Virus record (IMG/VR): IMGVR_UViG_3300024346_004772
Coordinates: 1 to 37,366 of that record
Direction: 5' to 3' (one strand)
Source of the DNA: a virus
DNA length: 37,366 bases
Part shown: positions 22,090 to 37,366 of the stretch, piece by piece
Numbering within the stretch: the first letter of the stretch is position 1
Layout of the letters: the number at the start of each line of letters is the position of its first letter
Translations under genes and position numbers: made by a program
The notes under the pieces: model-generated
What the model was told of the DNA's origin: nothing
Seen by the model: the letters and a program-made list of their open reading frames with translations, nothing else
The model's database searches: none

Positions 22090-22101
22090 CTCCCCTTTTT
22101 T
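22076..22101. terminator. Bidirectional terminator at the convergent boundary
   Basis: AAGGGGAGT (22076-22084) pairs with ACTCCCCTT (22089-22097) across a 4-base loop, followed by T to 22102 on the plus strand. On the minus strand the same stem is followed by TTCTTC. It lies between the plus-strand stop at 22089 and the minus-strand stop at 22101, so it can end both transcripts. Confidence 0.82.
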
Positions 22102-25100
22102 TATCTAAAGAAACTTGATTCAAATGCTTTGACTGCCTCTCCTGGTTTCATGTTATAACCAGAGAAGCCCATAAGTTTTAAGAAAGCTGCCCAAGCTTTA
22201 TTATCTCCTTTTTCCCATACACCTGATTCTCTTTTATATTCTTCAGTGATGTTCCAAGGCATAACTTGATTTATAAACTTTATCAAACGGTCAACAGTAC
22301 TTGTCATAGCTGACGGTGACCTAAAGATACGGATAGCATCAATTGGGTTGATGTAAGAAGCTGTTTCTGATCTCATCCTAATGATCTCATAGACCATAAA
22401 GTTATATGCATAGCTTTCTTCCAGTGTAGTTTTTTCATCATCATCTGGATCTACTATAATTTGCGTTAGAATAAATCCTAATGTTGCAGCTCCAAGGACA
22501 ATACCCATTTCAGTAAGTGTCTTTCTAATCTGAGCTTTTTGGAAAGGTGTGTAACTTGACCAGTTCTTAATGATGTTATACTTGTATTGCTTTAAGTCTT
22601 TTAATAACATGTCAGCAAATGTTCTGTAGTATCCTTCTGTTGGTGATCCAATTTCATGATCCATAGAAGCTCTTTTAAATCTTCTTTTGTAACCAGGTAC
22701 AACATGCTTTCTATACATTAATGCTAGGCGACCCACAGAATACTTTTGCATAGTACCTTTATCAAAGTCATTATAGACACCATTCAGGTATTTATTGATA
22801 CCGTGAAGTCTAGCTTGGATATCTTGGCGGTAAGATTCACTAAATGGTACATATATTATTTCACCATTCTCATCAGTCTCAACTTGACCATTACTATCTG
22901 TTTTAGCAATTTTAATCTTAGTACTAATATCCTTTGCACCATATGCATTGTATGCTTCAAGTAAAGAGATCTCTTGGTTCTTAGCAACATCAAATACTTT
23001 AGTAGCATCTAAGATTGCACACATAGTAGAAACTTGTAATTCATATTCCCCAAAGTGCATGTTAAAGAATAATGTATCTGTTCTCATGAGTTTATTTAAT
23101 CTACTCATAGAAACTTTCTTACCATACTCATCTTTAAAGTTACCTTGCATAGGGTCATAAAGCTCAACCAGTTGGCCTAACAAACTTGTTGGCGCAGGTT
23201 TACCAAAGTCACCTAACACTCCAGGAATATTTTTTGCAACAAAAGCTTTACCTCTTCTTACATTCTTACCATTAAAGAATTGACCTCCGGCAGCTTCAAT
23301 AGCTAACTGAATATTACCTTGGAAGTTGTTAGCAATACCCTTAAGTAAGTCTGCCGCTAATGTGGTAAGTGCAGCTACTGACATTGCTGTATTGGTAATC
23401 TTTGTAAGAGATAAGCCTCCGAATATTTCTTCAGCTTTTTGCATCTCACCATAGACAACCATATTGATAAACTCATTTAAGTGCTTAGTAGAATATGCTT
23501 CACCATTCTGGCGTATATACTCCTCATAACCCATCTTGTTTGCAAATGCATCAAGTACAGCTTGACCTTTACTATTAGTTACAGGAACCTTACGGGCTCC
23601 AATAACTGTTTTCATCATAGAGATCTCAGCATTAACTTCATTAAGAGCTTCGTATTTATTTGCCATAGCACTAAATACAAGTACAGAAGATGTAAAGTCT
23701 AAAGAAACAGTTTTAGCATCCATTGGCTGAGTATAGTAGATTGGTAAGAATCTAACGTCCTCTTCAGAAATACTTCCTAGTTGAAATTCAATATCATAGT
23801 TCTGCATCTTAACTGCTTCACTAGCTTTGTTTACAACCAAATCTTTAATACCATTCTGCATTATTCTTTCAAGGTCGGTCTTCTCTATTGATGGTACACG
23901 GTAACCTTTCTGTTGACTCTCAGGTAGCTTGGATTGTGCCTCAAAGTAAATTTTTAATAACCTTTCATGGAACCTACCTTTTTCATTAATAGGAACATCA
24001 TTCTGGTTATACATTGCTTTCCACTTGCTACTGATATATTTGTCAGCCGGGAGGGCCAGGTCTCTTGCGTATACAATTCTTCCTTTTACCTTGAGTACAT
24101 TTTTCTTTTGCCACTCTTTGAATTCATCCTGAGATATAATACCTCTTTGTACATCTCTGTTTTTCTCAGAGATTATTTTTTCAATTTCCTGTCTTGACTT
24201 TGGTACAGTGTTATCTTCAAGCCATTGGTTTCTAGCTTCAAACCAAGCATCAATTTTAGCTTTCTCAGCTTTAGTTGCTCTTACCCCTACCGGAGTAGGA
24301 TAATCCCCTAAGGCTTTATACATTTCTCTTTCTGCTTGCTTGAATCTGTTGACATCATACTTCTGTACAAACTGAACTTCTTGGCGCGTTTCTTTTACCG
24401 TGCCGTCTGTGTCGTATATAGGAATGTCTACTACCTCATATATACCATCATAAAACTTTGCAGTATTGTCAGAAGAAGCTGGGGCAGTTGGGCGGTATTT
24501 TAAAAATGCTTCCACCAAGTCATCCCTTACCTCAATGTCTTTTTGCCTTGCAAATTCCAATTGACTTTTGATTGATTTTGCAAATAAGGCTAAGGCTGCA
24601 TCTGGCGAAGTGATTAGTGGTGATATTAGGAAGTCTACTACTCCTTCGTCTTTATATGCTTGTCTGAGTATTTTTGTCATTGAGTCTTCATCAATGTCAA
24701 ATGTTTCAAACATGTCTAGTCTAGACTGAAGCTTTTTGATTTCTTTTTCTTTGCGAGCATCTTTCATCTTAGGATTGTTCCTAATAGCTTCTATCTCAGC
24801 CTTCATAGCCTCTATCTCTTCTATGATTGTAGCGTCTTGAAGTTTTGATTTATATGCAACTAAGTATTTAGCGAGCATTGGGATTGCTTCACTGATTACT
24901 TTGAGTTTAACTTTATTACGGATAGAGATTGCATCAGAAAGCATTTTCTGCGGAGTCATTGGACCAGCTACACCTGCACCTTCTTCAGGTAAATTAAAGT
25001 AGTCCATGATGTCTGCAGAATCTATCTCATCTAGAATAGAGTAACCATTAACAAAGTCATTAATGGCTGTAAGCTCTCTTAATACATCTTTGTAGTCCAT

Positions 25101-25559
25101 ATTACCTTTATTAGATAATAGTGCACCAAATCTCTTCTTTACCTGCTTAGCTTTGTTATATGCATCAGATATAAAGATTGCAATTGATTCTACTCCGTCA
25201 GCTACTTCAATTGCTGTTTGTAGATCTTTTAATTTCTTTTGCTTAAACTTTTGATTCTGGATTTTTTTCTTGTTAAGAATCTCAATTTCTTTTGCCAAAT
25301 AAATTTTGATTTTTTGCATCAAGCCTTCAAGATCCTGTGCAGGAGTTTCAACCTTTTCTCCATTTATTTCATTGAAGTCATCATCATATTGTTTATCAGA
25401 AGAATAATCATTAAGATCCTCATTCTCCTCATAACCTTCCTCTACCCAAATTCTTTTAGCTTCAGCCTCAATCTCTGCTTCACTATTTAATCCCGGTGTT
25501 CTTAGTGCTTTATTATAGCACCACTTCCATTCTCTAGTATTTTTATTAGGACATTTCAT
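22101..25559 (-). CDS. Large probable virion protein with C-terminal membrane segment
   Basis: This 1152-residue protein begins MKCPNKNTREWKWCYNKALR. The N-terminal third is acidic to lysine-rich with long coiled-coil stretches (about 75-120 and 230-290: EEIEAMKAEIEAIRNNPKMK). The centre is mixed. Hydrophobic segments occur at about 716-740 (ITNTAMSVAALTTLAADLL) and about 1016-1033 (GIVLGAATLGFILTQIIV, then DPDDDEKT). Its place at the end of the polymerase block fits the cargo or ejection proteins that crAss-like phages package with their RNA polymerase. A coiled-coil protein with membrane-spanning helices could help carry the cargo across the cell envelope. This role is inferred from context. 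It begins right at the stop of the 300-residue gene (TAAATG). Confidence 0.7.
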   Translation of the reverse strand: MKCPNKNTREWKWCYNKALRTPGLNSEAEIEAEAKRIWVEEGYEENEDLNDYSSDKQYDDDFNEINGEKVETPAQDLEGLMQKIKIYLAKEIEILNKKKIQNQKFKQKKLKDLQTAIEVADGVESIAIFISDAYNKAKQVKKRFGALLSNKGNMDYKDVLRELTAINDFVNGYSILDEIDSADIMDYFNLPEEGAGVAGPMTPQKMLSDAISIRNKVKLKVISEAIPMLAKYLVAYKSKLQDATIIEEIEAMKAEIEAIRNNPKMKDARKEKEIKKLQSRLDMFETFDIDEDSMTKILRQAYKDEGVVDFLISPLITSPDAALALFAKSIKSQLEFARQKDIEVRDDLVEAFLKYRPTAPASSDNTAKFYDGIYEVVDIPIYDTDGTVKETRQEVQFVQKYDVNRFKQAEREMYKALGDYPTPVGVRATKAEKAKIDAWFEARNQWLEDNTVPKSRQEIEKIISEKNRDVQRGIISQDEFKEWQKKNVLKVKGRIVYARDLALPADKYISSKWKAMYNQNDVPINEKGRFHERLLKIYFEAQSKLPESQQKGYRVPSIEKTDLERIMQNGIKDLVVNKASEAVKMQNYDIEFQLGSISEEDVRFLPIYYTQPMDAKTVSLDFTSSVLVFSAMANKYEALNEVNAEISMMKTVIGARKVPVTNSKGQAVLDAFANKMGYEEYIRQNGEAYSTKHLNEFINMVVYGEMQKAEEIFGGLSLTKITNTAMSVAALTTLAADLLKGIANNFQGNIQLAIEAAGGQFFNGKNVRRGKAFVAKNIPGVLGDFGKPAPTSLLGQLVELYDPMQGNFKDEYGKKVSMSRLNKLMRTDTLFFNMHFGEYELQVSTMCAILDATKVFDVAKNQEISLLEAYNAYGAKDISTKIKIAKTDSNGQVETDENGEIIYVPFSESYRQDIQARLHGINKYLNGVYNDFDKGTMQKYSVGRLALMYRKHVVPGYKRRFKRASMDHEIGSPTEGYYRTFADMLLKDLKQYKYNIIKNWSSYTPFQKAQIRKTLTEMGIVLGAATLGFILTQIIVDPDDDEKTTLEESYAYNFMVYEIIRMRSETASYINPIDAIRIFRSPSAMTSTVDRLIKFINQVMPWNITEEYKRESGVWEKGDNKAWAAFLKLMGFSGYNMKPGEAVKAFESSFFR

Positions 25560-28751: not shown

Positions 28752-31700
28752 TTAGTAACATTCTTTTAGTTTGGTGATTACCAGTTCTCTATCTTTTGTA
28801 GCTAATGCATCATTAATGTAAGCAAGCGCTTGCTCAGGTGACATGCTGTATTTATTTGAGAAGTTTGTCAAAATTGTATCTCTTTCTTCTTTATTAAAGT
28901 CTTCTAATGAATTAAACAAATCACTTGTTTCAAGATCTGTTGCAGCTGCTTCAGTTAACCCCGCATCAGCTAACATAGCTTTAATTTGAGGAAGATTCTC
29001 TCTTGTAGCATCTTTTCTTACAGTTCCTTGTCTTCCAAGGTTTATACCCTCAGCCGGGATAACTAATTTAATATTATCTGAAGCCTGTACAGTTTTAATT
29101 AACAACGGCATTATTTCTTCTACTGACCCTTCACCATGACCTAATCCAGCTAATGGTAACAAATAAGTTCTATCTGCATTACCTCTTGCTGTCATAATCA
29201 AGCTTCTTAGGCTTTCTTTAAGAAGATCCATATTGTTATTCATACCCATTGAATCACTCCATACTTTCTTAACAGGAAGTTGGACTACGTTATCTGTAGC
29301 TTTGAACACACCGTCACCTTGTTTAATAAGACCTTTTGCTTTAGCTGCTTGTGCTAAACCTGCGCCATGTACACCACCTAAATTAGTTGTGATTACAGGA
29401 ATACCAGGTAAAGAGAATATGTCACCTTCAAGTACTTTTGATGGAGATTCTCTCAATACTGTACCTGGAGACATGAAGTCTTCCATACCAGCAAGCTCAT
29501 CATCAGATAATCCTTCAAGGAAACTTTGTACTGAAGTTTGCGCAACACTTGCAAATGGATCCACAGTATAGTTTTTGTAGCTTGACTTGGTAGCATTCAT
29601 TGTATTATAAATTCTATCTAGTGTTTCCACATTAACATCATTAGCTAAGAATGCTCCTGATGCATTTTCCATTACGGCAATAAATGCTTCTGGGTCAAGA
29701 ATTTTTGTAAAGCCAAGTTTGCTATAACCTACACCATGCTGATAGAACATTAGCATTGAGAAGTTCTTAAATACATCACTGATTCTTTTATTGTCAGCTT
29801 TGTCTTTTACTTTTCTAACTGTTGGGTCAGCTAATTGTTTTAAGTTTTTATAATATTCTGTAGCGGTATCACCTTTAGCTGTACCCTTATCGTTTAATTC
29901 AAGAACATTAACATCTTTCTCAAATTTAGCAGGTGCTAATTGAGCTAAGACAGGATAATTATACTTAATGTTTTGATCTTCAAACTCAGAAATAATATTC
30001 ATTACCATGTCAGTATATGAGTACTTAGTAGTACCCATAATGAATGCGTGGTTAAAGCTACTAATAAGAGCACGTTGGGTAAGATAGCTATCAGTTGCTT
30101 CAGGATAAGCAGATTTAAAATATGCTTTCTCCATTGCAAACTTCACATAGCTTTCAAATGTTGGGAATGGATTATCTTTTATATCAAAAGTATCCTGATC
30201 TGTATTTGCATAACTATCTGGACTGTTGTTATTACTTAAGAAAATTTTTGAAGCATAGTCATTTTGTAACTTAGCCAAATTAACTTGATAACCTTTATCG
30301 GTTAATGTAATAGCAGGTCCTTGACTAACTTCATTTACAGGATATGTATGTACTTCTTCCGGTAATGTTACAGGGCGTCCATTCTCATCTGTATAGTTAG
30401 ACATGGTATTTTGGAAAATATAATTTACTACAGCATTGTTAAATGTATTTGTAAATCTCTCTTGACCCTTAATTCCAACTCCATATTTTTGAGCAATTGA
30501 ATCTTTATTCTTAGTGATAACTTTATCAATATAGTTTGATATAGTATCATTTAATCTTAATGCAAATAGTGGGTTTGTAAGATTAAGTATCATGTCACTC
30601 TTATAGAATGATGACAAGATAGATTTATGTCTTAACCTATCTAAGAAATCACTATCTACTTTAGATACTTCAGATAATAAAGACAAAGCTTCATCTCTCT
30701 TCTTAACATGTAATACAGTATCAAGCATTCCAGTATCTGGAGTGAATGCCATCTCAAGTGCATCCATACCACTGAATTGTTTTTCTAACTGAATCATACG
30801 CATTAAGATTGCAAGATTTTGTATTGTAGGTCTCATACCTTCTTTTACATAGGTTTTAAGTTCTGATTCCGTTAATACTTTATTCTCACTTCCAAAAGCC
30901 ATTTTCCATGCAGCCTGTCCTGCATAATAGAAGTTATCATTGTTTGCAATACCAAATGATTTAGTAAAATACTTTTTCTGGTCTGCATATGAAACACCTT
31001 CTTCTCCGGCTTTAAGTTCTACAATGTCACCTAATGGGAAATCTTTTGATTTAAAGATTCTCTTACCTGTAGCACTCATTGGTTGAGTCAACTCACCATT
31101 TCTTGATAGAACAAAAGTGTATTTTTTATTTAAGTCTTCTTTTTTAAGAACTCCAATAATGTCTGCTAATCTGTGGCTGTTTGCATATTTTGCTAATTCT
31201 TTAACTGTCTTTTCAGAAAGACCTTGCTTAACCATTTCATTAATAGTAAGTCTAGCAGCAGCTGCTTTTACTTGATGACTTGCAACAGGATTATCCATTA
31301 GTTTAGCAGTTGATCCACCAAGGTATACCTGGTTATCAATATATCTAGCAATCCATGGGTTATTTACAAATGCAAATACCTCAGATACTTTTGCTCCAGA
31401 TTCAATTAAGTGATTGATAGTTGGAAGAGCCTCTTTAATAATCTTTAAGATGAATGGGAATGGATTCTTTGCACGGTCAAGTAATCCTTGTAGACCATGT
31501 GAGAAGATATCTCCAATTTTTTCTCCTTCAATATTGTTTTGATGTGACAATGAAACTACTGTTTGACCTTTTGAATTTGTTGTGGTCTGGTGAGCAATTG
31601 GCATTACAACATCATAATCAATATCAAGCTCATCATACTTTTTATCTTCATCATTCCAAATAGTAGCCTTATAAGAAGCTGGCATTACAGCACCAACACT

Positions 31701-34700
31701 TTTAAATAAAGAGTGTACTTTATTCTTTTTAGCCATTATCCCAAGCGGTAAGTTACCTGATAAGTTTTTCTCATGAACACTTAAGTTATATTCTTCATCA
31801 AATATTCTTGATGGGCTCATTACTGTCTTATCTCCTGCCGCATTTAATCTTTCAGCTTCATTATGAGCATTTGCTTTTGGATTATAGATTGAAGAGTTTT
31901 CTTGGTAAAAAGAAACTTCATCCTCAACTAAGTATGTGTTATTAGGTTTTGTTAATGTAGCATATTTCTCAGGTAAAGAAAGAATCTTAGCTGTTTGGCG
32001 GATCAATTCATTTTGAGCATATTTTTTATACTGTGCAATAAGTGAGCCTGCACTTCTAAACTCTTTATTCTTTCTTTGTTTAAAACTTGCTCCGTTAGCT
32101 TTTTTAACCATTGCTTTTAGTTCTTCCGTTGATTCAGCAACTTTGCCAACCATTGTGCCATCACTATTTAAGTTAGGTAGCATGAAAGAAATTTTATCAA
32201 CGTCAAAGTCAGATCCAGCTTTAGCTACAATTTCTGTAGGAACAATAACTATGTTACCATAACTAGGATCTATAAAATGCCATACTTCTGCAAACTCAAT
32301 AGTGTTATCTGCATCTGTAGGGATACGTGGACCAGCAATTGTAATAAGTTCTCTGTTTTTTTCAAGCCATTCATCATTTTTAATTAGATCATTAAGCCTG
32401 TCAACATTTCCTATTTTTTCACCATCAGGGTGAATAATGTTTAATAGATTTAAAAAGTCTCCATGTAGAGTAATAGCTACTTTCATAGCCATTGTGTTAC
32501 CTCTTGAACCATCTTCATTAAATATAGTTCTATAGAAAGGTAAGTTATTAGAACCAAGATACTTTTTAATTAACTCATCATTCTTTTTAATAGCTTCATC
32601 TCTTTCATATTCACTGTCCCAAATACCATTATAGAATGTAGATGGTGCTTGAATTAATGCTTCACCTTTAGTCTTTTGTTTAATTACACTTTTCTGAATT
32701 CTATTAACAATAATTTTTTCAAGTGTATCTGCCTCTGGATGGATTGAGAAATCCATTGACAAGTTACCAGTTACTCTTGTATCTAATAGTGTAATTAAAT
32801 GTTCTGGAACTTCTCTTGCTCCAAGTTCTTCTCTAATTAGCTCAATGAACTTATCAATTTGACCAGTATATGTTTCTGTCTTAGGGTCATATTCATAACC
32901 AATTTTATTAAGAAGCTCTAATGTTAAAATTTCTGTATAGTCATCAACTGCAGATTTATAACCAGCAGCTACTTCTTTATGTTTGTCAGCAACTTCACCT
33001 ACATTAAATAAACCATCTAATAATAGTACACGTTTCTGTGTTGGATAGCTAATCTCTCCTTTAAACTTAGTGTTGATAGCAGTTACATCTTTAAGATACT
33101 CTAAGTAAATTTTATTAAGTTTTACTGGAGCATCAGCTGAAACTGCTTTTTCATCACTACCCGGTTCAAAAATATTATCAAATGTACCATCCATAGTAAG
33201 AGTAGATACTTTTGATCCTGATCCAAATGCGTAGTATTGCATGTTAGACTTTAACATCTTTAAGTGAAGATCATAAAGTTTTGTACCTGGTTTAGCTAAC
33301 GTAGGAATAATTGGCGTTACCGCAAACTTGTGCATCCCTGTAGTAGCAATTGGTGCATTTGCAATTGAACCATAGTAATGTAATTTATAAACAGGGAAGA
33401 ACTCTTTTACTTTTTTAGGGTCTACTTCTTCACCATTTATGATTTGCTGATACAATGCTTCTTGTGCAGTTGACCATTTGTCATTCATGAATCTTAAGGT
33501 TCTGTATGCATCAAATGTCATAAATGCAGCTCCATCAGACTCAACCATTTTCTTATAAGCTTTAGCATCTTTAGCTAATTTCTTATCAACCTCTTGTTTT
33601 AATTTCTTAGGGTCAGAAATAATTGGAGAAAGGTCAGCATAGTATTTTTCTTCCCATGCGTCAAGCATATCATCTAAGTAAACAGAAAGTCTTTCAGCAT
33701 CTGCAATTACTCCGGTATTGAGTGAACCGTCCATTACAAACTGATTAACTGTATCATCCTCTAGTTCTTTTGCTAACTTAGAAGCATATGTCTTTTTGTT
33801 AAGTACATTATTGACAAAGTCCTGCATGTACTCATCATTTAAGAAAGGATCACCATCTGATGTAGAACCAGGTACACGTTTTGAAGCAGCCTCTTTATCA
33901 TGGTCAAATTGAGCAGCATCCCCATTTATAAGAGAGAACATTTCAAATTTGTGAATCCAAGAATTGTACAAGTATCCTTTTAATAAAATTAAGTCAGAAG
34001 CTTGTTGATTTTTAGAATTTAAACCTTTAGGGTCAATACCAGCTTTTTCATATAACTGATTGTCTACATAACTTAATTTGGTAAACTCATTTCTATATAA
34101 GCTCTCCGCCTTTTCTTTAAAGTAGTTAACAATATCTTTTTGGATATCCAAGTATAGATCTTGATTACTTCTAATGTATGTTGGCAAATCAATTGTTGAA
34201 TTTGATACTAACTTATATAGTTTATTTTTAGTTGGTGTTGTAAGTATATTATCAAATGCTGTAAATACTTCTCCAGCAAGTAGAGGGCTACCGTCTTTCT
34301 TTTTACCTACTTCTCTGTTGTATCCTATAATATTTTTAAGCTCAGTAGGATTTTGTTTAAAGTATCTGATTCTATCAAATTCTACAGCAATATAGTCTAA
34401 GAAATAACCACCAACAGCTACAATTTCACCTGGTGTAAGTTCATCTGCATTTTTAGAATTAAACTTGTTGAGGTCAATGTATAAATTTTGGTCAACACCA
34501 TTTGTAATACCATTAACAACAACTTTCATTTTACTACCTATCTGTCTTATACCAAATGCTGATTTCTTTTCAGCATGGCGCATAAACTCAGCAATACCAT
34601 TTAAGCCAAATGTGTGTACTTCTTGAAATAGTTTTCCTGTCTTATCTAAATCAGCGGTAGTAATACCGTCTAATCCTGCAATTTGAGTACCACTAGTTTG

Positions 34701-37366
34701 AATTAGTTGTAAAACTTTATCACCTTTTTTATCAAGTGATTCATTTGTTGTATCAAATAAGGCACCAATAACTTTAGATCTTAAAGTAAAGAATGATTTA
34801 CCTGGTTTAAAGTGTGACATGTATCCATACTTAGGATCTGTCCATAAATCAGAAAGATTCTCAACAGTATTTAAAGCATCTACAGTAACAGTAACTTGAC
34901 TATGATTTATATTTTCATATACTTTATTCCCATCAGGCAATAATACAGCAGGATTTGCGTTCTCATATCCATATTGTAATTGTAGCTCTGCTATTCTTTT
35001 TAAGATATTTTTTTCAGCAACATCTTTTTCAAAGCTTTCTAATATTCCTTTTGGGATTTCAGTTCTTAAAACTCCAATAGGATTAGCTATAAATTTAGCT
35101 AAGAAGTCTTTTTGTTTTGATGTTGCTTCAGGGTTTTGTTGAATTTGATAAAAGTCCTTTACAATATCATAGATGTATGGTAAGCCATAGTACTCTGACT
35201 TATTCTGTAAATTATCTTTAATTGGGTCAAGAGTATCAAGCTTAATACCTAAAGCTGCTGCAAACTGCATTGACTTTTTAATATCTAACTGATCTAGATA
35301 TTTTTTATCTTGGAAATCAAAAACAACATTTTCTAGATTTAGAATAGCTTGATTTTTATCATTCTTACTGATATATTTATTAGGCGTACTACTTTTAAAC
35401 AGTGCTTCAAATCTTCTAATAGTAGAATCAACTGCTAATGAAGACTCAGTAACTTCACTTTCAAAACCAGTGATTTTTGTATCTACATCTCCAAACAGGT
35501 TCATAGTTTGACCATATTGTGGGAATACAGTAAACTGCCAGTACTTAATACTTGGTTTTGCAAACGTTTGCCAGAATGAATTACTTAGCTTCTGCTCAAA
35601 TAAGTTTGTGATACCTTTTGGATTAGGTAACTTAGTTTCAATTAGCTGCTTAAGCTCAGGGAAGTTTTTACTTTCTTTTTCTAAGATTTCATAAACCTTT
35701 TGTCTGTCTCTTATGCCGCCAATATTCTTAACTATGATACCCCAAATCTTTTTAAAATCGGCGGGTTCTTTAAAGCCCAATCTATTGTATGAGATATTTC
35801 CTTCACGGTTAACTTTATGAAGACTCTTTAATAGATAGATTACTTCTTTAGAAGCAAGTTGAAGAATTGATTTTTTATTAGCAGCCTCTCCACCAAATGG
35901 GGTCTCACTGTCATGAGTTTGATTTTCTTCATCCTCATCTATCTCTTCACCTTCAGCATCAAGCATGTCTTTATCCAAATAATATTTAGCTGATCCAATA
36001 TCAAAGCTTGAGTGCTCTAAATGATAGGCAATCATACCAGAAGGTTTTGAACCTTTAGAATCCCATTGTGGGTCTCCATAGTTATCAATTGCCGCTTGTA
36101 AGATTCTGATATTATCTAAGATAAGTTCTTGTTCTGCACTTAAATCAAATTCAGGTACATCTTTTAATTCAATCTCAGGAATGTAATTTTTTGCACCGCC
36201 TTTAATATAGTTATCAAGTTGTACTTGAGCATCTTCTAAATTAGATACAACAAGAATATTAACCGGTTTACCTTTCTCTTCAATAGTTTTATGAGAGTAG
36301 AAATCTCCTACAATCTTAATACCATGCCATGACTCACCTCTTACTCTTGTTCCTTTTTTAATCTCAGGAGTAACTTTGTCAAATCCATCCATTTGAGATT
36401 GTAAGAATACATACTTATCACTATTATCAGTAGTCTTTAGTACGGCAACAGCTTCATTTTGAAGTTCCTCTAATGTATTGATTTTACTAAACACATTGAT
36501 AGATTCATCTCTATGAAGTTTTCTTTTAAACTCATCAAGCTTTTCTTCTAATCTTTCTTTGACCACCTCATATGTAACACCTCTTTCTTCCGGATCTAAC
36601 AATAAACCCACAGTTCCAGATTTAAGACTTGTATAATTACCAGTTTCTCTAGCTTCTGCAAGTCTTTCATTAAAGTAATCATCAATGATGTCTGAAATAA
36701 TCATATCCATTGAATTAGATATTAAGTTAGAATCTTGCTTACTTAATGCTGACTCACTTGGATTATCAACTTTTGCAGCACCCCTGTCTAATTCAAAGAA
36801 GTCTACATTGGCAATGTTAGCCTGGTATGATCTTACAAATGTCTTTTTATTTGAAGAGTAGTTTAATTTCTCAAACATCTCTCTTACTGCAGGAACATTC
36901 ATAACATCTGTTACAACTTCTGTAGGATTGATTGGTTTTAAACCGAACAAACTTCTCAAGAAGTTTAAGATTTTTCTAAACAATTTATTTTTTACTGGTG
37001 ACCCAGTTTTAATATAATTGCTCTTCATATATGTTCTGAAGTCTTCAGCAAGCATTTCATCAATCTCCTTATAACTCATAGAAGCATAAGGATTGTTTCC
37101 GTTCTTATCTGTGAATTCTTGAACTTCACTGTATAAGTCATATTTTTCTTGGCGTGTGAGATACAACTGGCTAAATGCATGCCATGCCTCATGATAGATA
37201 TCTACAAGTGTACCTTTGTCAGGATTAATTTGAATTTTTGCAATCTTATCAGAGCCCGCTAATGTGGCACCACTTACAATAAACTTTGCAAATACATCTG
37301 AGTTTACCAAGTTGTATGCATGCTCTAGTTCAATATGTTTTTGTAACTCTTTACCAAACTTACTGT
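28752..37366 (-). CDS. Giant single-chain RNA polymerase-like polyvalent protein (5' end outside window)
   Basis: At least 2870 residues are visible; the frame is open to the right edge. A TTG at 37310 lies inside the frame and is not needed as a start, because the codons before it (SKFGKELQKHIELEHAYN) are clearly coding. Residues below count from that TTG. Near the N-terminus IYHEAWHAFSQLY (38-50) has HExxH, with an Glu-rich helix EIDEMLAEDF (82-91): a zincin metallopeptidase motif. At about 1700 (nt 32196-32210) SDFDVDKISFM is the DxDxD metal site of two-barrel RNA polymerases, preceded by RIPTDADN. The C-terminus (about 2639-2750) resembles a macro domain. In crAss-like phages this class of enzyme is packaged in the virion and transcribes early genes. 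Confidence 0.85.
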   Translation of the reverse strand, partial: SKFGKELQKHIELEHAYNLVNSDVFAKFIVSGATLAGSDKIAKIQINPDKGTLVDIYHEAWHAFSQLYLTRQEKYDLYSEVQEFTDKNGNNPYASMSYKEIDEMLAEDFRTYMKSNYIKTGSPVKNKLFRKILNFLRSLFGLKPINPTEVVTDVMNVPAVREMFEKLNYSSNKKTFVRSYQANIANVDFFELDRGAAKVDNPSESALSKQDSNLISNSMDMIISDIIDDYFNERLAEARETGNYTSLKSGTVGLLLDPEERGVTYEVVKERLEEKLDEFKRKLHRDESINVFSKINTLEELQNEAVAVLKTTDNSDKYVFLQSQMDGFDKVTPEIKKGTRVRGESWHGIKIVGDFYSHKTIEEKGKPVNILVVSNLEDAQVQLDNYIKGGAKNYIPEIELKDVPEFDLSAEQELILDNIRILQAAIDNYGDPQWDSKGSKPSGMIAYHLEHSSFDIGSAKYYLDKDMLDAEGEEIDEDEENQTHDSETPFGGEAANKKSILQLASKEVIYLLKSLHKVNREGNISYNRLGFKEPADFKKIWGIIVKNIGGIRDRQKVYEILEKESKNFPELKQLIETKLPNPKGITNLFEQKLSNSFWQTFAKPSIKYWQFTVFPQYGQTMNLFGDVDTKITGFESEVTESSLAVDSTIRRFEALFKSSTPNKYISKNDKNQAILNLENVVFDFQDKKYLDQLDIKKSMQFAAALGIKLDTLDPIKDNLQNKSEYYGLPYIYDIVKDFYQIQQNPEATSKQKDFLAKFIANPIGVLRTEIPKGILESFEKDVAEKNILKRIAELQLQYGYENANPAVLLPDGNKVYENINHSQVTVTVDALNTVENLSDLWTDPKYGYMSHFKPGKSFFTLRSKVIGALFDTTNESLDKKGDKVLQLIQTSGTQIAGLDGITTADLDKTGKLFQEVHTFGLNGIAEFMRHAEKKSAFGIRQIGSKMKVVVNGITNGVDQNLYIDLNKFNSKNADELTPGEIVAVGGYFLDYIAVEFDRIRYFKQNPTELKNIIGYNREVGKKKDGSPLLAGEVFTAFDNILTTPTKNKLYKLVSNSTIDLPTYIRSNQDLYLDIQKDIVNYFKEKAESLYRNEFTKLSYVDNQLYEKAGIDPKGLNSKNQQASDLILLKGYLYNSWIHKFEMFSLINGDAAQFDHDKEAASKRVPGSTSDGDPFLNDEYMQDFVNNVLNKKTYASKLAKELEDDTVNQFVMDGSLNTGVIADAERLSVYLDDMLDAWEEKYYADLSPIISDPKKLKQEVDKKLAKDAKAYKKMVESDGAAFMTFDAYRTLRFMNDKWSTAQEALYQQIINGEEVDPKKVKEFFPVYKLHYYGSIANAPIATTGMHKFAVTPIIPTLAKPGTKLYDLHLKMLKSNMQYYAFGSGSKVSTLTMDGTFDNIFEPGSDEKAVSADAPVKLNKIYLEYLKDVTAINTKFKGEISYPTQKRVLLLDGLFNVGEVADKHKEVAAGYKSAVDDYTEILTLELLNKIGYEYDPKTETYTGQIDKFIELIREELGAREVPEHLITLLDTRVTGNLSMDFSIHPEADTLEKIIVNRIQKSVIKQKTKGEALIQAPSTFYNGIWDSEYERDEAIKKNDELIKKYLGSNNLPFYRTIFNEDGSRGNTMAMKVAITLHGDFLNLLNIIHPDGEKIGNVDRLNDLIKNDEWLEKNRELITIAGPRIPTDADNTIEFAEVWHFIDPSYGNIVIVPTEIVAKAGSDFDVDKISFMLPNLNSDGTMVGKVAESTEELKAMVKKANGASFKQRKNKEFRSAGSLIAQYKKYAQNELIRQTAKILSLPEKYATLTKPNNTYLVEDEVSFYQENSSIYNPKANAHNEAERLNAAGDKTVMSPSRIFDEEYNLSVHEKNLSGNLPLGIMAKKNKVHSLFKSVGAVMPASYKATIWNDEDKKYDELDIDYDVVMPIAHQTTTNSKGQTVVSLSHQNNIEGEKIGDIFSHGLQGLLDRAKNPFPFILKIIKEALPTINHLIESGAKVSEVFAFVNNPWIARYIDNQVYLGGSTAKLMDNPVASHQVKAAAARLTINEMVKQGLSEKTVKELAKYANSHRLADIIGVLKKEDLNKKYTFVLSRNGELTQPMSATGKRIFKSKDFPLGDIVELKAGEEGVSYADQKKYFTKSFGIANNDNFYYAGQAAWKMAFGSENKVLTESELKTYVKEGMRPTIQNLAILMRMIQLEKQFSGMDALEMAFTPDTGMLDTVLHVKKRDEALSLLSEVSKVDSDFLDRLRHKSILSSFYKSDMILNLTNPLFALRLNDTISNYIDKVITKNKDSIAQKYGVGIKGQERFTNTFNNAVVNYIFQNTMSNYTDENGRPVTLPEEVHTYPVNEVSQGPAITLTDKGYQVNLAKLQNDYASKIFLSNNNSPDSYANTDQDTFDIKDNPFPTFESYVKFAMEKAYFKSAYPEATDSYLTQRALISSFNHAFIMGTTKYSYTDMVMNIISEFEDQNIKYNYPVLAQLAPAKFEKDVNVLELNDKGTAKGDTATEYYKNLKQLADPTVRKVKDKADNKRISDVFKNFSMLMFYQHGVGYSKLGFTKILDPEAFIAVMENASGAFLANDVNVETLDRIYNTMNATKSSYKNYTVDPFASVAQTSVQSFLEGLSDDELAGMEDFMSPGTVLRESPSKVLEGDIFSLPGIPVITTNLGGVHGAGLAQAAKAKGLIKQGDGVFKATDNVVQLPVKKVWSDSMGMNNNMDLLKESLRSLIMTARGNADRTYLLPLAGLGHGEGSVEEIMPLLIKTVQASDNIKLVIPAEGINLGRQGTVRKDATRENLPQIKAMLADAGLTEAAATDLETSDLFNSLEDFNKEERDTILTNFSNKYSMSPEQALAYINDALATKDRELVITKLKECY

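Follow-up and report, generated by a model that had tools for sequence, protein, structure and literature searches.

The stretch of DNA analysed here (the window) comprises 37,366 bases and is a linear virus record, probably a fragment. On its minus strand a giant open reading frame (ORF) runs with no stop in its frame between the window edge and position 28752. The features of this ORF and of a large gene downstream of it are listed below, with residues numbered from the first one encoded in the window.

28752..37364, minus strand: giant virion RNA polymerase (RNAP) ORF, 2,870 aa within the window, its N-terminal part lying beyond the window edge
36915..37364, minus strand: zincin-type domain, about residues 1-150
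37179..37193, minus strand: HEAWH, predicted zinc-binding HExxH motif, residues 58-62, invariant in 64/64 homologues
37044..37058, minus strand: E103-M-L-A-E107, with E103 and E107 both invariant in 64/64
36144..36506, minus strand: variable insert of about 120 residues (about 287-407) between the zincin block and the next conserved block
31011..34013, minus strand: RNAP core homologous to the phi14:2 virion RNAP (profile match, E 1.3e-54)
32193..32210, minus strand: DFDVDK, the RNAP catalytic metal motif, residues 1719-1724 (within GSDFDVDK)
29055..29417, minus strand: C-terminal domain of the giant with the look of a macro/phosphatase-type phage domain (weak PHROG matches)
22101..25559, minus strand: large downstream protein (1,152 aa); in relatives its homology lies with the C-terminal part of the giant encoded after the RNAP gene

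The giant ORF and its polymerase core

A profile built from the region around DFDVDK (48 sequences, including that of the window) matches phi14:2 GenBank gp77, the chain solved as PDB 6VR4 (6vr4_A), at E 1.3e-54 and PhicrAss001 gp50 at E 1e-40, which identifies the window giant as a virion RNAP of the crAss type, with the homologous core and DFDxDK motif of these Crassvirales polymerases. The phi14:2 and PhicrAss001 RNAP chains carry no zincin, unlike the window giant, where the polymerase lies some 1,660 residues downstream of the zincin motif in the same ORF; among the first relatives, 28/30 likewise have the RNAP motif in the zincin's ORF. The original prediction that a metallopeptidase is joined to an RNA polymerase in a single chain is well supported as far as a zincin-type domain and a crAss-type RNAP are concerned, both by the match of the RNAP profile to the phi14:2 RNAP and by metal residues that are invariant in 64/64 homologues. 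Its placement of the motif on the N-terminal side holds relative to the polymerase but not for the chain as a whole: complete relatives of the giant measure about 3,290-4,910 aa with HExxH at residues 569-1,024, and in the closest ones (L002-L007) the motif occupies residues 868-872 of the stop-to-stop frame, so that about 810 N-terminal residues of the window giant would precede the window edge.

The insert at 36144..36506 is filled in just 26-48% of relatives, mainly those of the window's own clade, and is possibly a linker. Near the other end of the chain, the stretch TTNLGGVHGAGLAQAAKAKG... (29055-29417, minus strand) gives weak matches to phrog_2072 (E 0.0016) and phrog_335 (E 7.9e-4). 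The counterparts of the protein encoded at 22101..25559 are phi14:2 gp76 and crAss001 gp49; the window's version lacks the additional zincin described below.

Conservation and predicted fold of the zincin-type domain

The stretch YHEAWHAFSQLY begins at residue 57 of the giant and brings in HEAWH, with H58 at nt 37191-37193, E59 at nt 37188-37190 and H62 at nt 37179-37181. At 41 residues past this motif, E103 (nt 37056-37058) lies within EIDEMLAEDF (residues 100-109) and is a candidate third zinc ligand, with E107 as a candidate second-shell acid in an ExxxE arrangement resembling the ExxxD/E of gluzincins. An intact HExxH offering two histidines, with a candidate glutamate about 40 residues on, is therefore present as originally described. 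It is the single HExxH of the window chain, for which residue shuffling yields an expectation of 0.047 per chain.

To assemble homologues, IMG/VR was searched with the whole giant (28 loci) and with the domain alignment (442 confirmed relatives, 80 kept), and distant Crassvirales records came from whole-protein tblastn. H58, E59, H62, E103 and E107 are found without exception in 64/64 non-redundant homologues (111 loci before clustering at 90%), a conservation that is partly selected for because the search patterns contain the motifs, with the counterweight that a locus could be picked up by one of two separate patterns or by patterns lying in other parts of the chain. E103 is also invariant in the 54-sequence alignment A3, and within a 24-sequence set the zincin shares 24-78% identity with that of the window. 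The conservation of the histidines and glutamate, on which the prediction had been staked, consequently stands. Furthermore, the domain of PhicrAss001 gp47, kept outside profile building, is recognised at E 3.7e-11 and carries the motifs HEAFH and EENMAEGF, and hmmsearch scores residues 5-174 of the giant at 226 bits with a profile that includes the window sequence. Along the chain the zincin domain is the best conserved block in the N-terminal half of the giant and is flanked on both sides by stretches of low conservation; against close relatives its dN is about 0.2 and its dS about 2 (saturated), and the domain is under purifying selection.

Known families did not reach this domain by sequence. 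Pfam and PHROG scans of the window giant and its zincin returned no zincin family, a PDB sequence search with the zincin profile gave chance matches only, the M34 family (lethal factor/PPEP) showed no sequence match, and Pfam MPTase-PolyVal did not match the window zincin, the PF18818 scan having missed its controls too. An AF2 model of the zincin (22 sequences; pLDDT 70, pTM 0.59) has confident motif helices, including a predicted helix 98-115 bearing E103 and E107, preceded by a sheet that falls below 50. Foldseek with this model, low-confidence sheet included, found no significant match. VIA-align ranks two zincins highest, both of them M34-type peptidases: PPEP-3 scores Z 5.0 and anthrax lethal factor 4.8; no unrelated chain exceeds 4.0. 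These Z values are low and the model is partial. The zincin fold that the prediction called for is accordingly supported only weakly by modelling.

Other zincins and gene arrangement across Crassvirales

In most relatives (L008-L029) another HExxH (LHEFAHPL and others of the LHEF[AS]HP type) is found in the giant after the RNAP gene; in phi14:2 this second zincin sits in gp76 (L034:14998-19263, minus strand), with neither the RNAP nor gp78 bearing one. The window's large genes contain no second zincin, which seems to have been lost in the window's clade. The second zincins of phi14:2 and cr1_1 hit the PHROG of the N4 virion RNAP in its zincin region (E about 1e-7), that of cr1_1 alone also reaches PF07737 below the cut-off, and the window-type profile detects those of cr1_1 and cr10_1 at E of about 2e-5 to 5e-5 in a small database. 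Profile-profile comparison gave 89.5% for window-type against second zincin and 87.6% for second zincin against N4, with controls (reversed, shuffled, unrelated) at 7% at most; compared directly, window-type and N4 zincins reached 9%, and nil in a run with other alignment settings. On these profiles, we read the window-type, second Crassvirales and N4 zincins as one remote superfamily in which the direct N4 link is weak, the zincins of the window and of the N4 virion RNAP being probably related via the second Crassvirales type.

In the N4 virion RNAP (gp50) and its N4-like counterparts, as in the window giant, RNAP is fused to a zincin whose HExxH is followed by a Glu. They differ in that the N4 polymerase is T7-like and single-subunit with the zincin after it (PMC12633501), whereas the window polymerase is crAss-type with the zincin before it, and on both counts the window giant falls outside the N4-like (Schitoviridae) pattern. 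In the zincin-like MPTase of polyvalent proteins, which are giant injected proteins of phages, HExxH is joined by a Glu on the helix that follows (PMC5512222); the window giant fits this architecture, with its injection assumed by analogy to PhicrAss001. Thermus phage P23-45 has a 5,002-aa protein, gp96, in which a metallopeptidase domain accompanies a virion RNAP (PMC10770324); likened here by description only, it is a tape measure fusion with the RNAP at the N-terminus, unlike the window giant.

Within Crassvirales, a single chain of about 3,300-4,950 aa holds both zincin and RNAP in the window clade and in the Suoliviridae cr118_1, cr1_1, cr10_1 and cr50_1. Several other Suoliviridae records were left out of this chain-sharing score because they appear broken under table 11, consistent with the stop-codon recoding known in the group (PMC7886860). 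In cr108_1 the zincin and the start of the RNAP lie in one ORF and the remaining RNAP in the next; RNAP homology stops at the ORF end and resumes 290 nt on, near the metal motif (L031:9530-9821), a break that is possibly an intron. In Dulem virus 41 the zincin is the last domain of its gene and the RNAP gene starts 33 nt later on the same strand. In PhicrAss001 and cr85_1 it lies near the C-terminus of gp47 or its equivalent, with the RNAP encoded by a separate gene on the opposite strand. PhicrAss001 gp47 (L032:26120-33145, plus strand) is annotated as an RNA-polymerase subunit, yet has no RNAP profile match; it reads, by its sequence, as a PD-(D/E)xK-like nuclease with a C-terminal zincin. 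In relatives of the window, the gene preceding the giant shows homology to gp47 along this nuclease-like stretch, so that the order nuclease, zincin, RNAP seems to be kept while gene boundaries shift. Overall, the zincin domain is a long-standing component of the transcription module of Crassvirales.

Possible roles during infection

These data make it highly likely that the ORF encodes the virion RNAP giant of a crAss-like phage, in which the polymerase is immediately preceded by a gluzincin-type metallopeptidase domain with its catalytic residues intact. In this domain, H58, H62 and E103 would hold a zinc ion and E59 would activate a water molecule, and the zincin probably cuts either the giant itself or a host protein during infection. 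In PhicrAss001 the zincin-bearing gp47 and the RNAP gp50 are virion proteins by mass spectrometry, as is gp49 (PMC10172136, PMC6235969), and the window chain is presumed on this basis to be packaged and ejected with the DNA. Our best explanation overall, at a probability of roughly 0.4, is that the domain is a gluzincin-type peptidase which, once the giant is ejected, processes its own chain or neighbouring giants. The zincin would cut the variable stretches on either side of itself, or the neighbouring giants, and the RNAP would thereby come away from the N-terminal ejection/nuclease part, most probably after entry into the host. Self-processing after ejection is favoured because the zincin stands at a movable gene junction with poorly conserved flanks, and processing of P1 DdrB, a polyvalent protein with such a domain, counts in the same direction (PMC5512222). 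Against it count the packaging of the N4 virion RNAP, with its related HExxH domain, in unprocessed form (PMC5512222) and the absence of degradation of the recombinant full-length protein (PMC12633501). On gels, PhicrAss001 virions yield bands at 150, 270 and >300 kDa (PMC6235969), near full-length gp47, gp49 and gp50, making cleavage before packaging unlikely there. Furthermore, Steigviridae such as PhicrAss001 have the zincin off the RNAP chain, so freeing the RNAP cannot be all that it does.

Self-processing leads our ranking of mechanisms, and its main rival, in our view unlikely, is an effector role in which the zincin is carried in by the ejected RNAP giant and cleaves a host protein (one of defence, transcription or the envelope, for instance). 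Zincins do serve as effectors in conflict systems, as Iyer et al. propose for polyvalent proteins (PMC5512222), and both the retention of the zincin near the end of gp47, apart from the RNAP, in PhicrAss001-type Steigviridae and that of a second zincin with a different motif context in the giant after the RNAP in most relatives would suit such a role. The domain is nevertheless conserved over a wide range of phages and always within or adjoining the virion RNAP module. Most host-directed effectors, by contrast, turn over fast. Less expected still would be a metal-binding domain that serves the ejected RNAP in a structural or regulatory way and acts as no peptidase in infection. This would agree with the N4 virion RNAP, whose CTD with its HExxH subdomain autoinhibits transcription and which stays undegraded at full length (PMC12633501), as well as with the near full size of the PhicrAss001 giants in virions, but a purely structural metal site has no need of the general-base Glu and is disfavoured by the invariance of E59 (64/64).

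That the domain is instead a non-peptidase HExxH enzyme, such as an iron/2-oxoglutarate enzyme of the alphaKG-HExxH type, we regard as very improbable: an HExxH is not diagnostic by itself, and for N4 C1 the N4 authors point to radical-SAM-associated HExxH proteins as well as zincins, but the ExxxE follows HExxH at gluzincin-like spacing, the best structural matches (PPEP-3 and lethal factor) are peptidases and profiles tie the domain to N4/polyvalent zincins. Finally, HEAWH might be a coincidental HExxH within a helical protein and have no metal function, and the failure of any Pfam or PHROG zincin model to reach the domain unaided would agree with this. Such a coincidence is hardly credible, being strongly disfavoured by the conservation of five residues in 64/64 diverse homologues where 0.047 motifs are expected per chain.

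Returning to self-processing, a wider version of it appears possible, if doubtful, in which the Crassvirales virion polyprotein processes itself through a zincin that sits at a conserved junction, where the nuclease/ejection part meets the RNAP, and that cuts fused chains after ejection. Where a gene boundary coincides with this junction the cut would be unneeded, and where the genes are fused the zincin would make it.

Among the viruses of the human gut, crAss-like phages are the most abundant. Fusion of RNAP to a zincin was published in 2017 for N4-like phages, together with the ideas of self-processing and host cleavage, in a paper by Iyer et al. that makes no mention of crAss-like phages (PMC5512222), and the crAss zincin-RNAP is a variant of this previously published kind of fusion. 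Full-text literature searches returned no paper naming a crAss zincin, an earlier naming in Yutin 2018 or Drobysheva 2021 being possible. Zincin-bearing proteins are publicly annotated as 'RNA polymerase subunit', 'DNA helicase', 'nuclear pore complex protein-like' or 'hypothetical', and their annotation can thus be improved. The H/E/H site of PhicrAss001 gp47 provides a conserved, testable active site in the giant-polymerase machinery of a cultured phage. If the proposed reading is true, zincins would have been recruited to virion RNAPs of different folds (crAss, N4 and possibly P23-45), and such recruitment would be a shared rule of ejected polymerases.
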